This document shows, piece by piece, positions 33,388-41,959 of a DNA stretch of 52,195 bases. Under the pieces are notes generated by a model. It was not told the DNA's origin, made no database searches, and saw only the letters and a program-made list of their open reading frames with translations. The translations under genes were made by a program, and so were the position numbers. How positions within the stretch are numbered: position 1 is the first letter of the stretch; each line of letters opens with the position of its first letter. This DNA is from Nitrospirota bacterium (GTDB taxonomy: Bacteria; Nitrospirota; Thermodesulfovibrionia; Thermodesulfovibrionales; Magnetobacteriaceae). The stretch lies in contig JADFXF010000004.1 in NCBI GenBank assembly GCA_015233685.1, positions 1-52,195 of the forward strand, written 5' to 3'.

Positions 33388-34383
33388 CTGAGAATATCGG
33401 GATTTGACGACTATTTTTACCTTCAATGGCACATCACAAACCGCTGCAACTTACGCTGCAGCCACTGCTATATGGGGGATAGTAAGCCTCAATCAGGCCG
33501 CGATGCCCTCATAAGCGTCATTGAAAAGTATGATGACTTCTTAAAACAAATGCGCCTAAGGGGCAGGATACAGATTACCGGAGGTGAGCCGCTCATGTCA
33601 GAGGACTTGTTTGTCCTTCTTGAGGAGGCTCGAAAAAGGAAGATGCCCACGAGGATTCTATCCAACGGCACACTGCTGAGCAGGGACAATGCGAGGATGC
33701 TGACAGAGACCAACTGCAGGATAGTGCAAATATCTCTGGACGGGGATAAAGAGACACATAATGCCATAAGAGGGGAGTTTGCCTACGAAAAGGCAATGGA
33801 AGGTGCGGCAATACTAAAAGAAGCAGGTATCGCCGTAACTATAATGATGACCCTGTCGGGGGCCAATCACACGCGGCTTAGATCTGTTTATGACGAGGCT
33901 ATAGCCCTGAAGGTGGAGAGGTTTACGTTTTCGAGGCTTGTCCCCATAGGAAGGGGGGCGTCTTATCACGACGGCACGCTGTCTAAAGGCGAGGTGAAAG
34001 ACCTGTTTCATTTGTGCCATAGGCTGAAGCTGGAAAATCGCGTGGAAATGCCGTTGAGAGACCCCCTGTGGGGTCCATATTTAAGACCGCGGGCGCGCCC
34101 CAGAGTTGTAAGCGGCTGCTCAATAGGATATAACGGCATTTGCATAGACAGCGATGGCTCAGTCTATCCATGCCGGAGGCTGCCGGTATTATTAGGCAAT
34201 ATAATGGTTGATGATTTCGTGAAGCTCTGGGAACACGAGATATTAAATTCACTGAGAGACAGGGACGCACTCACGGGCAAGTGCGGAGAATGCCGTTACA
34301 GATGGCAGTGCGGCGGCTGCAGGGCAGTTGCCTATGCAATGAACGGGGATTACTCAGGAGAAGACCCGCAGTGTTTTGTATAG
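33388..34383 (+). CDS. Radical SAM/SPASM enzyme, non-canonical start
   Basis: The core motif CNLRCSHCYMGD lies at 33445-33480, followed by ITGGEPL, LSNGTLL, IVQISLDGDKETHN and a C-terminal SPASM domain (CSIGYNGICIDSDGSVYPC, GKCGECRYRWQCGGC). An annotation starting at the first ATG (33472) would lose the cluster Cys residues. Between the TAG at 33379 and that ATG the frame contains no ATG, GTG or TTG; candidates are ATT (33385) and CTG (33388), with GGAGG at 33370-33374. The protein from CTG is 331 residues. Readthrough of the TAG is an alternative. It probably modifies a peptide or protein. Confidence 0.8.
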   Translation: MRISGFDDYFYLQWHITNRCNLRCSHCYMGDSKPQSGRDALISVIEKYDDFLKQMRLRGRIQITGGEPLMSEDLFVLLEEARKRKMPTRILSNGTLLSRDNARMLTETNCRIVQISLDGDKETHNAIRGEFAYEKAMEGAAILKEAGIAVTIMMTLSGANHTRLRSVYDEAIALKVERFTFSRLVPIGRGASYHDGTLSKGEVKDLFHLCHRLKLENRVEMPLRDPLWGPYLRPRARPRVVSGCSIGYNGICIDSDGSVYPCRRLPVLLGNIMVDDFVKLWEHEILNSLRDRDALTGKCGECRYRWQCGGCRAVAYAMNGDYSGEDPQCFV

Positions 34384-36934: not shown

Positions 36935-38878
36935 TCACCGCCTGGTTTTATTTATTTTCTCCTCAACCCGTTCCTTCAGACCGCGCTCGTCTTTAAAAAA
37001 CTTTATTGACTTCTGCCATGCCTGCACTGCCTTGTCCGGCATGTTCAGCTTGATGTATATATCGCCAAGGTGCTCATATATCACCGCATCATCCTTCATC
37101 AAAACAATTGCCCTTTCTACTTCCTTTAAGGCCTCGTTATATAAACCCTTCTTAAAATACACCCACCCCAAGCTGTCTATGAAGGCACCGCTGTCAGGTT
37201 TAAGCACCAATGCCCGCTTGACCAGGTCGTTGGCTTCGTCCAGATTTATCCCTTTCTCCGCATACGAATACCCAAGGTAGTTCAATGTCTCGGAGTTCTT
37301 TGGATTTATCGCTATGGCCTTTTTTAATACCGCAACCATTTCGTCAAAATTATTCTCCTTTTCACATACAACAGCAAGGTCTAACAGGAGCTCGTCGCTT
37401 TCAGGAAATTTGGCTATTCCACGTTTCAACACCTCTTTTGCCCTGCCATAATCGCCCGCGCTTAAATACGTAATTGCAGGATATCTGAAAAAATCAGGCT
37501 TGCTGCTGTCATAACTCAATATTTCTTCATAATACTTTGCAGCCGCGCTGTAATCCTTTAATTCGTTATTTATATAACCCAGCCTCAAAAATGCCTTTGT
37601 GTTTTCAGGGTCTATGTTGACTATCTGCTTTAACTCCTCAATGGCCTCAGGATATTTCTTCATGGCCTCGTAACATAAGGACAGGTAGTATCTTGACATG
37701 ATGTTGCCGGGCACTGTGGATTTGACTATCATAAACTCCTCAATGGCCTTATTGTAGTCATCCGCGTCAAGATATAGTTGCCCTATTTTGAAGTGTATCT
37801 CAAGATTTTCAGGAATTTCCTTGCTTAACTCCCTGAGTTCCTTGATGGCCTTGCCGAAGTCCTTGTCCTGTATATAGACACGGGAGAGCATATCGCGCGC
37901 CTTTACGTTTTGCGGGTTTATCTCAATGGCACTTTTATAGAACTGTGCCGCCTTGTCAAGGTTTTTCTTCTTTTCCTCTATTATCCCCATATATACATAG
38001 GCGTTGTCCAGCGATGGATCAACTTGTATCGCCTTCATTATATGTTTTTCGGCGTTTTCTGTATCTCCCATCTCAAGATATATAACCCCTATGTAGTAGT
38101 TCCCCATGGTGTTGCTATCGTCACTATTAACATATATGTTTAACACCCTCAGCGCGTTAGTATAGTCCTTTTGAGATAAATACATGGCGCCTAAAAATAC
38201 GAACGCAGACATGTCAGTGGGTGCAAGGCGTATTACCTTTTCGTATATCTCTACGGCTTCCCTGATTCTTTTTTGTGAGTTATAGAGTTCGCCAAGGAGT
38301 TTTAGCGCCAGCACATACTCAGGATTTCCTTTGACAATCTCAGCGGCACTTTTTACAGCTTCCTCTATCTTGCCCTGCCTGACATAGATTTGGGCAATCT
38401 GTAATCTTAAATATGGAGAATTCGGGTCATCCTTTAATGCCAGCCGGTACTCCTTCATGGCCTTATCCCAATCGGCGTCAACCTCTGCGATGGCTCCAAG
38501 CATAAAGTGGTACTCAGAGTCTTTGGCATCCGCATCTGCAGCCTTAGGTGTGGGCGGCCTTTTCCCCTCACCGGCAACCTGAAGGGATTCCTTTGTCTCT
38601 GGTTTTGTTTTGGTTTTTATTTTTGGTTTCGCGTTGGGGTTTGCTTCGGGTTTCGCCGCAGCGACCTTTGCTGCCTCTGCCATGGTTTGGTTATCGGTTG
38701 CCATTGCAGTGTGGGCAACCGGCTCGGTCAGCGCCGCTGGTGCCGCGCTTTCCCGCGTCTCAGTCTGGCTGCCCTTTGCCCCAAAGGCACACCCCGACTG
38801 CACAACAACCATCGCGGCTAATATACAGTAGGCCGTTATTACAAAAAAGACTTTCATCGCACTCATCTTGCCGTTCAT
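36935..38878 (-). CDS. TPR-repeat lipoprotein
   Basis: A 647-residue protein. The signal peptide ends at VVVQSGC, a lipobox-like site with Gln at -3, so lipidation is likely but not certain. Residues about 20-100 are Ala/Lys/Pro-rich (KIKTKTKPETKE), then about 13-15 TPR motifs fill the rest (LRLQIAQIYVRQGKIEEAVK, NYYIGVIYLEMGDTENAEKH and so on). Such proteins scaffold complexes at the outer membrane. ATG at 38878 is chosen; ATGs at 38866 and 38857 are alternatives. A GGGGGG/CCCCCC hairpin lies just upstream of the start. Confidence 0.85.
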   Translation of the reverse strand: MNGKMSAMKVFFVITAYCILAAMVVVQSGCAFGAKGSQTETRESAAPAALTEPVAHTAMATDNQTMAEAAKVAAAKPEANPNAKPKIKTKTKPETKESLQVAGEGKRPPTPKAADADAKDSEYHFMLGAIAEVDADWDKAMKEYRLALKDDPNSPYLRLQIAQIYVRQGKIEEAVKSAAEIVKGNPEYVLALKLLGELYNSQKRIREAVEIYEKVIRLAPTDMSAFVFLGAMYLSQKDYTNALRVLNIYVNSDDSNTMGNYYIGVIYLEMGDTENAEKHIMKAIQVDPSLDNAYVYMGIIEEKKKNLDKAAQFYKSAIEINPQNVKARDMLSRVYIQDKDFGKAIKELRELSKEIPENLEIHFKIGQLYLDADDYNKAIEEFMIVKSTVPGNIMSRYYLSLCYEAMKKYPEAIEELKQIVNIDPENTKAFLRLGYINNELKDYSAAAKYYEEILSYDSSKPDFFRYPAITYLSAGDYGRAKEVLKRGIAKFPESDELLLDLAVVCEKENNFDEMVAVLKKAIAINPKNSETLNYLGYSYAEKGINLDEANDLVKRALVLKPDSGAFIDSLGWVYFKKGLYNEALKEVERAIVLMKDDAVIYEHLGDIYIKLNMPDKAVQAWQKSIKFFKDERGLKERVEEKINKTRR

Positions 38879-38885
38879 GGTGAAA

Positions 38886-38904
38886 GGGGGGCACTTAACC
38901 CCCC
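38886..38904 (-). terminator. G6/C6 hairpin downstream of the small peptide gene
   Basis: Minus strand GGGGGG, 7-nt loop, CCCCCC, then TTTCA, 16 nt after the peptide stop and 7 nt before the TPR gene ATG. It could limit read-through from the peptide unit or hide the TPR ribosome-binding site. Confidence 0.5.
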
Positions 38905-38919
38905 TCAACCGGATTCCTC

Positions 38920-38982
38920 TTAACATGAACCCTTACACTTACACGTCAAAGCTGCCTTCCTCGTCAGTTTCCTTATGGTCAT
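38920..38982 (-). CDS. 20-residue Cys-rich peptide, candidate radical SAM substrate
   Basis: The small ORF encodes MTIRKLTRKAALTCKCKGSC, ending TAA. A perfect AGGAGG (38995-38990) has 7-nt spacing to the ATG, one of the best ribosome-binding sites in the window. The N-terminal 12 residues are basic and leader-like; the tail has three Cys (14, 16, 20) in a CxCxxxC pattern. It lies 96 nt downstream of a radical SAM/SPASM gene on the same strand, and has an extended -10 promoter of its own. PqqA and some other RiPP precursors are about this size. It could also be a leader peptide or a metal-binding peptide; no homologue is known to me. Confidence 0.6.
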   Translation of the reverse strand: MTIRKLTRKAALTCKCKGSC

Positions 38983-39063
38983 ATTTCCACCTCCTGTTAT
39001 GTTTTAATCTCTCACAGGGTGTCAATCACTCACCCCTACTGCTTTACCCTTGCCCTATCTGAA

Positions 39064-39072
39064 ATTATAACA
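39064..39072 (-). promoter_or_regulatory. Extended -10 promoter for the small peptide gene
   Basis: Minus strand TGTTATAAT, that is TGn plus a perfect TATAAT, giving a 5' leader of about 75 nt to the peptide ATG. It overlaps the last base codons before the radical SAM stop, so the peptide can be expressed apart from the enzyme. Confidence 0.45.
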
Positions 39073-39078
39073 TAGATG

Positions 39079-40245
39079 TCAATATAAAATGGAGTGGCAT
39101 TTAAATAAATCTTTCCCAAATGGGTCGCCAAGGGCTGCCGCCCTGTATCTGCAACCACCTCTGCATGTCTCTATCTCCGCGCAGTCACACTTAAGTTTGC
39201 TGAGGGGCAGTGGCTCAATCCGGCCCCAGCAGTGTTGAAGGCCGTCCTCTGCCGTACCTGCCGGTGTGTCGGCGTAGTACAGGCATTTAGAGGCGACTCC
39301 GTCTGCGGATATGGACATCAGATGTGCCCCGCAGGCCCATCCCCCCTCATCGCTACCGCAATGAATGCCGCCGCCATGGGAAAAACCATATGATAAAAGT
39401 TTACCCACCGATTCAGGCGGCAGGCACAGAGATTTGTTTCTCAGCAGGCTGCCCTTTGGCACCGGCACATCCACCGTCCAGTCCTTTATGTTCATATTGA
39501 TGAACATCTCTTCCATCGCGGCGAACTCTCCCATATTTTCTGAATGTATCGTTGTGGCCACAGACACATCGAACCCCACCTCCTGCGCCCGTTTTACGGC
39601 TTGAATTGCCTTATTGTACTGGCCCTCACCGCGCACGGCGTCGTGGCCCGCGGCAAGTCCATCTATGCTTATCTGTATCTCGTCCACATTCAGGCATTTT
39701 AGCAGCTCATCGGTCAGCAGTACACCGTTTGTGAGGAGGATTTTTCTCAGGGCAAACTCTGGAAGCCTCCTGTTAAGTCCGGCAAAATCGGGATACATCA
39801 GGGGTTCGCCGCCTGTCAATAGCAGCCGCAGCCCCTGCATGGCCTCAAAGTCTTTTAAAACCCGCACAACGGTATCCAGCGGCAGATGTACCGCACGGCT
39901 ATCCCCGACGAAACAATGTCGGCATTTCAGATTACACGCGGCGGTCAATTGCAGCTCAAGATATCTTAGTGATGGTATAGGGGATTGATTATCAGGGGGC
40001 CGCGCCACCAGGACAGGCGTAGTTGTAATAAGCCCCTCTTCGACGCAGTAAGAGACAAAAGCGCTGTCACCATCCCGGGCGCCGACACCGCAGCCACCAG
40101 CCTGTTTTAAGAAATCAAAGGCCGCGCTGTCAAGTTCATATAGTTCGTCTTTACCGGCATCATAGACACACGGGGTCTCTAAACGCTTTAAAAAGCATCT
40201 CTCGCTGAGGTAGTATTTAGTGCCATCAGAAGGCTTAGTTTCCAT
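39079..40245 (-). CDS. Radical SAM/SPASM peptide maturase-like enzyme
   Basis: A 388-residue protein. The N-terminal ~80 residues (YYLSERCFLKRLETPCVYDA, LDSAAFDFLKQAG) look like a PqqD-like RiPP recognition element. The radical SAM core has CNLKCRHCFVGD (about 109-120), LLTGGEPLMYPD, LLTNGVLL and EIQISIDG. The C-terminal SPASM region has CGAHLMSISADGVASKC, KCDCAEIETCRGGC and a final KCHS. This architecture is the usual one for enzymes that install thioether or other crosslinks in ribosomal peptides. The only neighbour that fits a substrate is the 20-residue Cys-rich peptide downstream. The enzyme is not tied to any known named family from what I can see. Confidence 0.85.
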   Translation of the reverse strand: METKPSDGTKYYLSERCFLKRLETPCVYDAGKDELYELDSAAFDFLKQAGGCGVGARDGDSAFVSYCVEEGLITTTPVLVARPPDNQSPIPSLRYLELQLTAACNLKCRHCFVGDSRAVHLPLDTVVRVLKDFEAMQGLRLLLTGGEPLMYPDFAGLNRRLPEFALRKILLTNGVLLTDELLKCLNVDEIQISIDGLAAGHDAVRGEGQYNKAIQAVKRAQEVGFDVSVATTIHSENMGEFAAMEEMFINMNIKDWTVDVPVPKGSLLRNKSLCLPPESVGKLLSYGFSHGGGIHCGSDEGGWACGAHLMSISADGVASKCLYYADTPAGTAEDGLQHCWGRIEPLPLSKLKCDCAEIETCRGGCRYRAAALGDPFGKDLFKCHSILY

Positions 40246-40385: not shown

Positions 40386-40836
40386 TCAATCTCTGCTGTT
40401 TAATTTATTATTTAGCCAGTCGTATACTGCTTTTTGCTCATCTATGCCAGCCCGTCTAATCTGCGTTAGCAACCAAATAAGACTAGGCTTCTCTGTTGTA
40501 ATATTTTTTGCTCCTTGATTACATGTTGAACATAAGGCACGTAAATCCATTGCGGTCAAGAACCATAGCCCGTAATCGGGCATTAATCAGAGGTGAAACG
40601 GTAACACCCGCTTTCTCTGGTGGTTTTTCTCGCAACAAATATTGCCCTGGTTTTAAGTCAGCACTATCATGGTTTGAAAGAATCGGCCAGCCTTCTTGTT
40701 CACGCAATTCTCTCAATCGGCGGCCATATTGACCTGCACCTCCTGATGCTGCTTGTATTTCGTGTGATTCAATAACTCTACCAACATTGGCAAGAAGGAA
40801 TTTGCGTATTTTTTCTTTGGAGCCTATCCTTGCCAT
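40386..40836 (-). pseudogene. HNH restriction endonuclease with internal deletion
   Basis: The N-terminal part (from ATG at 40836, MARIGSKEKIRKFLLANVGR, ...ARLRAMVLDRNGFTC) stops at TAA at 40519. The same DNA, in another frame, continues as DLRALCSTCNQGAKNITTEK to 40386. Homologues of this HNH type have about 35 residues between GFTC and LRALC, including the His of the HNH motif (from memory). Here both motifs share the 8-nt sequence TTACGTGC, so a deletion between two short repeats probably removed the segment. The ATG overlaps the methyltransferase stop (TAATG). Confidence 0.8.
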
Positions 40837-41801
40837 TATGCTTGCAACCGTATTGCTTGACGAGCCGATAGACAATTATAAATCTGTGTAGCCACTGCAC
40901 AAGCGACAGGTGGCGGGAAGGCATTGCCTATTTGACGGTAAGCCTGTGTTTTTTTGCCATAAAATACCCAGTCATCAGGGAATCCCTGAATCCGTGCCAC
41001 CATAGGTAAAGTTAATCGTGGCATACCTACAAAATTAGTGTCAGGTGGTAAATCCGCAATACCAAGCCCATCAATCCCTAAAGCAGCCCACGCCTTCCTT
41101 GCACGTGTGGGGCCTAAATCGGGGCCGCCGTGCTTCTTTGAACCACCAACAACAGTAGGTGCTATTTCGTTCGCTTTATCACGCAATAATGAAGCACCGC
41201 GCCATGATTTCGAAGCCATAATGTCATAGATTGTCTCGCCAACAGATAATGGTTTTTGTTTGTAAGGCATAGGCCATTCAAACAAATCTGAATATTGATT
41301 AAGAATTGCAACAAAAACAACACGGGGACGCAGCTGTGGTACACCAAAATCTGAGGCATTTAACAATTTCCAATCAGTTTTATATCCGAGTTTTGAGATT
41401 TGCCCGGAAATATATAGACGGTAATCCTCAAAGATAGAATCAAGGATACCTCTGACATTTTCAATCATTATAGCGCGTGGACGGATTTTGTCAATCAACC
41501 GAATAGCCGCAGGGAATAAATTACGCTCGTCAGATGTGCCAAGTTGTTTTCCTGCTTTAGAAAATGGCGGACAAGGCAACCCACCAGCAAGAAGGTCAAT
41601 CCCTTTAAATGGAGAACCATCAAATGTCTCAATATCTTGTTCAAAAACTTGCCAATGTGGACGATTTAATCTAAGAGTGTTACAACAGTGTGGGTCAATT
41701 TCTACAAGCCCCTTATGTACAAAGCCAGCACGTTCTATTCCAATTGCCTGCCCACCACCAGCACACAACTCCAAAGACGTAAGCCCTTTCCCTTTAATCA
41801 T
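40836..41801 (-). CDS. C5-cytosine DNA methyltransferase
   Basis: A 321-residue enzyme with all main motifs in order: SLELCAGGGQAIGIERAGF (I), GGLPCPPFSKAGKQ (IV, catalytic Cys), MIENVRG (VI), PQLRPRVVF (VIII), a short target recognition domain, RIQGFPDDWVF (IX) and QIGNAFPPPVACAV (X). It should transfer a methyl group to cytosine C5. ATG at 41801 is used: TTGACT-N17-TATAAT ends 6 nt before it, indicating a leaderless mRNA. Its partner nuclease gene is broken, so it is now effectively an orphan methyltransferase. Recognition sequence unknown. Confidence 0.92.
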   Translation of the reverse strand: MIKGKGLTSLELCAGGGQAIGIERAGFVHKGLVEIDPHCCNTLRLNRPHWQVFEQDIETFDGSPFKGIDLLAGGLPCPPFSKAGKQLGTSDERNLFPAAIRLIDKIRPRAIMIENVRGILDSIFEDYRLYISGQISKLGYKTDWKLLNASDFGVPQLRPRVVFVAILNQYSDLFEWPMPYKQKPLSVGETIYDIMASKSWRGASLLRDKANEIAPTVVGGSKKHGGPDLGPTRARKAWAALGIDGLGIADLPPDTNFVGMPRLTLPMVARIQGFPDDWVFYGKKTQAYRQIGNAFPPPVACAVATQIYNCLSARQAIRLQA

Positions 41802-41807
41802 GTATGG

Positions 41808-41836
41808 ATTATATCGAAATATATAGAGAAAGTCAA
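41808..41836 (-). promoter_or_regulatory. Promoter of the methyltransferase (leaderless)
   Basis: Minus strand TTGACT (41836-41831), 17-nt spacer, TATAAT (41813-41808), then 6 nt to ATG 41801. It lies inside the cassette's right inverted repeat, so it travels with the cassette. Confidence 0.75.
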
Positions 41837-41959
41837 TAAAGCGAGGTAAAAAATTCAAACTGAGACACTACCCAAATCCGGCTAAACTTGACAAACAGGC
41901 CAGCTTAGTTATAGCCTTATAAAGGGGCTGGGAATCGCAGACTGAATCTGCCGATACTT

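Follow-up and report, generated by a model that had tools for sequence, protein, structure and literature searches.

The window analyzed here, a stretch of 52,195 nucleotides from a Nitrospirota bacterium, carries a radical SAM (rSAM) gene followed after 96 nt by an open reading frame of 20 codons. The gene order, the gap and the AGGAGG at a spacing of 7 nt were all read directly from the sequence and agree with a preliminary description of the locus (Table 1). That description also gave the short gene an extended -10 promoter of its own and a hairpin past its stop. The -10-like element is an exact match, but two such matches occur in the window as compared to 2.35 expected by chance. The hairpin is present (-21.6 kcal/mol) but gains only modestly over shuffled sequences (z -1.8) and lacks a T-run; among relatives, terminator-like hairpins do follow the peptide stop in 41 of 110 cases as compared to 2 of 110 random stretches. 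In total, 43 open reading frames of at least 20 residues were listed in the 2.2 kb of the locus.

Directly upstream of the enzyme gene lies a C-5 cytosine DNA methylase gene (40836-41858, minus strand) with a small unannotated ORF (40519-40875), and the two may be a mobile or defence insertion. Downstream of the peptide gene is a gene for a TPR-repeat lipoprotein (36935-38926, minus strand) whose true start is probably near 38880; this protein scored 198.6 bits against the MamA model, just under the cut-off of 200. A second SPASM-type rSAM protein is encoded at 33472-34383 (plus strand) and was closest to heme- and ACGX-type families, far under their cut-offs.

Table 1. Positions of the enzyme, peptide and partner features
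Feature	Position	Strand	Basis
Radical SAM enzyme, 388 aa	39079..40245	minus	sequence, alignment, structure model
Enzyme N-terminal alpha/beta domain	about residues 10-75 (gene 39079..40245)	minus	structure model
Enzyme rSAM core motif CNLKCRHC	residues 104-111 (gene 39079..40245)	minus	alignment, invariant
Enzyme C-terminal domain, seven invariant Cys (C305, C321, C353, C355, C361, C365, C383)			alignment
Extended -10-like element TGTTATAAT	39064..39072	minus	exact match, chance-level, weak
AGGAGG ribosome-binding site, 7 nt from ATG	38990..38995	minus	read directly; same feature in 82/84 relatives
Candidate precursor gene, 20 codons, MTIRKLTRKAALTCKCKGSC	38920..38982	minus	ATG at 38982; read from sequence, homologues, selection
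Putative core, codons 14-20 (CKCKGSC), near-invariant	38923..38943	minus	peptide alignment
Hairpin 3' of peptide stop, without T-run	38879..38910	minus	folding against shuffles
Cys-rich partner in the window's own genome, other contig	G000:C44:21571-21861		search of relatives

The enzyme contains the rSAM core motif C104-x3-C108-x2-C111, which is invariant in the family, and matched PF04055 with an E-value of 1.6e-20. It had been described as an rSAM/SPASM protein with a PqqD-like N-terminus. The Pfam SPASM model did not match the window enzyme and matched 1 of 24 family members (E 0.014), but the C-terminal Cys are spaced as in the SPASM pattern Cx9-15Gx4C...CxxCx5Cx3C...C (C305-x10-G316-x4-C321; C353-x1(2)-C355-x5-C361-x3-C365; C383) and all seven are invariant in the alignment. 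Pfam and PDB searches returned no PqqD/RRE domain for the N-terminus, and it is the structure model that points in this direction: residues 11-69, with no sequence match to a recognition element, are predicted to form three to four strands and two helices and would have the position and rough make-up of one. The model as a whole (pLDDT 89) gave its best full-length matches to SkfB, SuiB and CteB over 409-452 alignment columns, and SkfB was also the best PDB profile match. Against the NCBIfam rSAM equivalogs the best score was 84.6 bits for a cut-off of 650 and none of the 25 best matches reached its own cut-off; the families below cut-off include SCIFF/ranthipeptide, sactipeptide, PQQ, mycofactocin, SbtM, GeoRSP and ACGX. 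The enzyme family itself is sharply bounded, with full-length members scoring at least about 430 bits against their own profile and the next rSAM proteins at most 161.

A 20-codon ORF of the same pattern lies 3' of most enzyme orthologues. Across all loci we collected 84 distinct coding sequences encoding 77 distinct peptides, 74 of which are exactly 20 residues long; overall the bacterial and archaeal peptides range from 19 to 21 residues and have three, rarely four, Cys. The 74 peptides as a rule follow the consensus [KT]-I-[KR]-K-[VIL]-x-[KR]-x-x-x-x-x-C-K-C-[K]-x-[STN]-C. C14, K15, C16 and C20 are invariant, S19 is present in 72 of the 74, and Glu and Tyr are missing from the aligned core save for Glu18 in two peptides. 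Codon substitution had been proposed as a check on the reality of the gene, and it demonstrated strong purifying selection, with a pN/pS of 0.161 overall, 0.246 for residues 2-13 and 0.041 for residues 14-20. Codons vary freely at the invariant residues (TGC/TGT, AAG/AAA and several Ser codons) and conservation drops to nil right past the stop. Of the 84 distinct coding sequences, 82 have within the 18 nt upstream a hexamer that agrees with AGGAGG in five or all six of its bases, as compared to 8% of random positions. Because the protein is conserved across phyla, is under purifying selection and is preceded by these Shine-Dalgarno-like hexamers, the ORF goes far beyond chance and is a real gene, and the CxCxxxC tail is where selection acts most strongly. 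Any sequence contains many ORFs of 20 codons, so a chance ORF near an ordinary rSAM gene was weighed as well; all of the conservation evidence, together with the co-occurrence described below, refutes this explanation and leaves it a negligible probability. No model in the family libraries holds the 20-residue peptide: one of 26 peptides matched the SbtA model weakly (E 0.14) and the other 25 did not match. Nearly all bacteria that have the peptide carry a single copy.

Pairing of enzyme and peptide was surveyed in 396 Nitrospirota genomes using a strict DNA pattern for the peptide (CKCKx[ST]C-stop) and an E-value of 1e-40 or lower for the enzyme. The pattern was found in 111 genomes and the enzyme in 118; both were present in 105, neither in 272, the pattern only in 6 and the enzyme only in 13 (Fisher 9e-73, not to be read literally as the genomes are related). 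The reversed-pattern control gave 0 matches in the same 396 genomes. The enzyme-only genomes mostly dissolved as counter-examples. Seven of the 13 (G227, G078, G100, G054, G320, G124, G378) carry a variant peptide (CKCKNSC, CKCKESC or CKCHSSC) with a proper leader-like half and Shine-Dalgarno sequence, two (G061, G354) show a peptide start cut by the contig end, and three (G070, G089, G094) carry the enzyme where a short or broken contig ends; G304 alone of the 13 had no peptide found. The peptide was present without a detectable enzyme in G031, G294, G316 and G397, some of which are incomplete MAGs. The match in G051, counted among those with both, is a chance match that reads CKCKCCC without a leader, and the match in G346 is doubtful. 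G316 has two near-identical peptide genes 1.5 kb apart (L207, at about 4055 and 5600). The motif is wholly absent from one large Nitrospirota family (f29).

The preliminary description had expected the short ORF downstream of the enzyme. The ORF lies next to the enzyme in the majority of cases, in most Deltaproteobacteria and in 21 of the 37 near relatives with a genuine peptide, but unlinked genes were frequent: in the other 16 the peptide is elsewhere in the genome or, in G031, without a detected enzyme. As the peptide is unlinked from the enzyme in many near relatives, the pairing is not explained by linkage alone, and the putative precursor is either encoded with the rSAM enzyme or strictly accompanies it, as expected of a RiPP system.

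The TPR gene stays beside the peptide in many Nitrospirota, as do ispE, prs, rplY and pth, including genomes that have the enzyme at another locus. The position of the ORF just upstream of the TPR-ispE-prs genes in several Nitrospirota, and the hairpin that follows it, would fit a role as leader or attenuator in regulating the TPR lipoprotein gene or ispE downstream. However, the downstream genes differ between lineages, it is the amino acids and not the nucleotides that are conserved, with synonymous codons varying freely, and the ORF tracks the enzyme when the two are unlinked. The co-occurrence with the enzyme and the codon pattern led us to reject a regulatory role for the ORF, which we consider very improbable.

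The number of anaerobic bacteria and archaea in which enzyme and peptide co-occur is well above one hundred. Within the phylum of L050, a record titled Deltaproteobacteria, the enzyme was found in 30 of 297 genomes and the peptide in 28 of these 30; the usual deltaproteobacterial order is peptide, Cys-rich protein, enzyme. One Spirochaetes MAG carries the same operon, the sole case in 149 genomes of its phylum. Among Methanoperedens-family archaea the enzyme was found in 27 of 34 genomes, and 21 have a 21-residue homologue ending in CKC[HK]SSC[AV] (for example MKIRKLKKVARGTCKCHSSCA). Some archaeal genomes hold two or three peptide copies (G857 has three, at L318, L333 and L338), and some of the archaeal copies lie near a P-type ATPase gene or an ABC exporter-like gene pair, which we take to be of the MacB/FtsX type. 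Immediately upstream of the archaeal enzyme, a short Cys protein (ICxxCEFFKEDDIELECAAFK) can be read from the DNA. The enzyme tree unites the archaea in a single clade (0.999). Bacteria mostly cluster with others of their phylum, though there is some mixing, a pattern that an old family would be expected to show.

Besides this archaeal spread and the frequent unlinking of the peptide, the comparison added to the preliminary description a third component and its fusion to the enzyme. This partner is a protein of about 65-140 residues with the motifs C-x3-C, C, C-x2-C-x-F-x3-C-D and PPCGG, for which there is no Pfam or NCBIfam model. It was found in 41 of 60 relatives and in 36 of the 39 that have the enzyme. 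The operon peptide-partner-enzyme is present in other genomes, and at seven deltaproteobacterial loci (L247, L248, L249, L252, L254, L257, L263) the partner forms the N-terminal part of an in-frame fusion with the enzyme. The fusion ORFs are about 500-570 residues long, and the one at L280:7116-8651 reads without stops. The structure model of the partner is all-helical (pLDDT 83) and matched no solved fold in the PDB.

The partner is fused to a cupin in two Nitrospirota, and what seems to be this cupin is encoded separately next to the enzyme at seven loci. This small cupin (THACYMxYG...GHEEI; L044:3249-3953, L183:6099-6788, L273:8450-8875), fused to the partner or adjoining the enzyme, is a possible fourth component. 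Genes for a pyruvate/2-oxoacid:ferredoxin oxidoreductase and a rubrerythrin-like protein are found next to the enzyme-partner pair in several families of Nitrospirota; at L150, L152, L176, L181, L183 and L044 the oxidoreductase beta and alpha subunits, the rubrerythrin-like protein and the partner are all beside the enzyme. These neighbours offer only hints of a redox role. In one deltaproteobacterial group (L279, L284, L286, L290) an ATP-grasp-like protein, possibly a second modifying enzyme, is encoded directly downstream of the peptide. No transporter, protease or immunity gene was constant around the loci compared.

The system was compared with known rSAM peptide pathways. SCIFF/ranthipeptide maturation (CteA/CteB) is alike in having an rSAM enzyme with an N-terminal recognition domain and a C-terminal two-cluster domain, and a short Cys-rich substrate that is conserved throughout an entire lineage; such conservation has been argued to speak against an antimicrobial role for SCIFF (PMC8326336). 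CteB (5why) was among the best structural matches of our enzyme model. In contrast, the SCIFF precursor has about 45 residues and six Cys and is found in Clostridia, while the peptide here has 20 residues and three Cys and is found in Nitrospirota, Deltaproteobacteria and archaea with an extra Cys-rich partner. SkfB and the SuiB-type cyclase gave the best full-length fold matches (6efn, 5v1t), but at 21% and 16% identity and with unrelated precursors and neighbourhood genes; the window enzyme reached 52.9 of 300 bits on the SkfB model TIGR04403. PQQ (PqqA-PqqD-PqqE) and mycofactocin (MftA-MftB-MftC) share with our system a very short single-copy precursor with a conserved core, a cofactor-like phyletic pattern and a small accessory protein beside the rSAM enzyme, and mycofactocin was first found by comparable co-occurrence. 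Unlike in those systems, the accessory protein here is helical and Cys-rich and not PqqD-like, the enzyme has its own N-terminal domain, and the core lacks both the conserved Glu and Tyr of PqqA and a Val-Tyr; the enzyme scored 54.6 of 381 bits against PqqE and 66.7 of 265 against MftC. The SbtA/SbtM thio(seleno)oxazole system also has an rSAM enzyme that acts on Cys/Sec of a short peptide, forming a heterocycle (PMC11002830), but there is no Sec here and the SbtM model reached 70.1 of 350 bits over the core region only. The pathway looks undescribed: it works like known rSAM RiPP systems but belongs to no named system among those tested. There is no curated model for the enzyme, the peptide or the partner as a family, the literature searched (main texts of papers open without subscription) held nothing relevant on the peptide sequence or on rSAM peptides in these taxa, and the main text of a large published rSAM-SPASM map (PMC9062424) makes no mention of Nitrospirota or Deltaproteobacteria.

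The preliminary description had presented the locus as a candidate RiPP system of an rSAM enzyme and a Cys-rich peptide, and co-occurrence and purifying selection support this interpretation. We put the probability that this is a RiPP-type maturation system with the 20-residue peptide as substrate of the neighbouring rSAM enzyme at about 0.78. The basic N-terminal half (xIxK[VIL]x[KR]) would most likely be the leader, gripped by the recognition-like N-terminal domain of the enzyme, and the C-terminal CKCxxSC would be the modified core, a split consistent with the conservation of the peptide. The 5'-deoxyadenosyl radical would be generated at the [4Fe-4S] cluster bound by C104/C108/C111, with two auxiliary clusters on the seven C-terminal Cys. 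Our first guess for the chemistry, held at rather less than even odds, is a Cys-based cross-link, with a thioether to Ser19, Lys15 or a backbone carbon. A core Cys thiolate could bind the auxiliary cluster nearest the active site and lead to such a cross-link, and cluster binding of the substrate Cys thiolate has been proposed for CteB (PMC8326336). C14 and S19 are five residues apart, the same spacing as Cys32-Thr37 first reported for CteA (PMC8326336). Cys/Ser oxidation or heterocycle formation, the latter as carried out by SbtM, would be the next guess. The Cys-rich partner would work alongside the enzyme and probably serve as an electron donor, a cluster or metal carrier, or a holder of the product; a role in donating electrons or clusters agrees with its Cys and with its fusion to the enzyme.

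The CxCxxxC tail is a plausible metal site, and the peptide could instead bind a metal or cluster unmodified, with the enzyme acting in the same process on a small molecule or on the Cys-rich partner. The frequent unlinking of the two genes would agree with this, as would the presence of NirJ and AhbC/D, SPASM-type enzymes with small-molecule substrates, among the sub-threshold family matches of the enzyme. The strict co-occurrence, the adjoining genes in the majority, the full-length likeness of the enzyme to peptide maturases and an N-terminal half of the peptide that is short and basic, as is typical of leaders, all argue against an unmodified peptide, making it quite improbable.

If the peptide is modified, it could be a secreted antimicrobial or signalling RiPP of the sactipeptide/ranthipeptide bacteriocin type, whose maturases share the architecture of this enzyme. 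The Cys-rich core and, in some archaea, the ABC exporter-like genes and the two or three peptide copies would suit secretion. However, the core is almost invariant from Nitrospirota to archaea, the gene is single copy in nearly all bacteria and often unlinked from the enzyme, and transporter, protease and immunity genes are not constant, so that a secreted product appears unlikely. A near-invariant core without constant export or immunity genes suggests a cofactor or a metal/redox peptide, and the product is somewhat more likely to be a conserved peptide or cofactor with a redox or metal-handling role inside the cell than an antibiotic. A housekeeping cofactor of certain anaerobes would fit with the invariance of the core, the predominance of single copies, the varying linkage of the genes, the absence of the motif from f29 and the finding that no exporter, protease or immunity gene is constant. 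That the whole is an ancient three-part bacterial and archaeal pathway for a Cys-based peptide cofactor, a redox or metal carrier, with a new helical Cys-rich family as its regular partner, is a tentative reading that we hold at slightly below an even chance.

Precursor genes of 20 codons fall under the usual reach of annotation, as the preliminary description had noted, and under that of neighbourhood-based genome mining. That the core of this one has hardly changed between Nitrospirota, Deltaproteobacteria and Methanoperedens-family archaea suggests a fundamental function in the metabolism of anaerobes.
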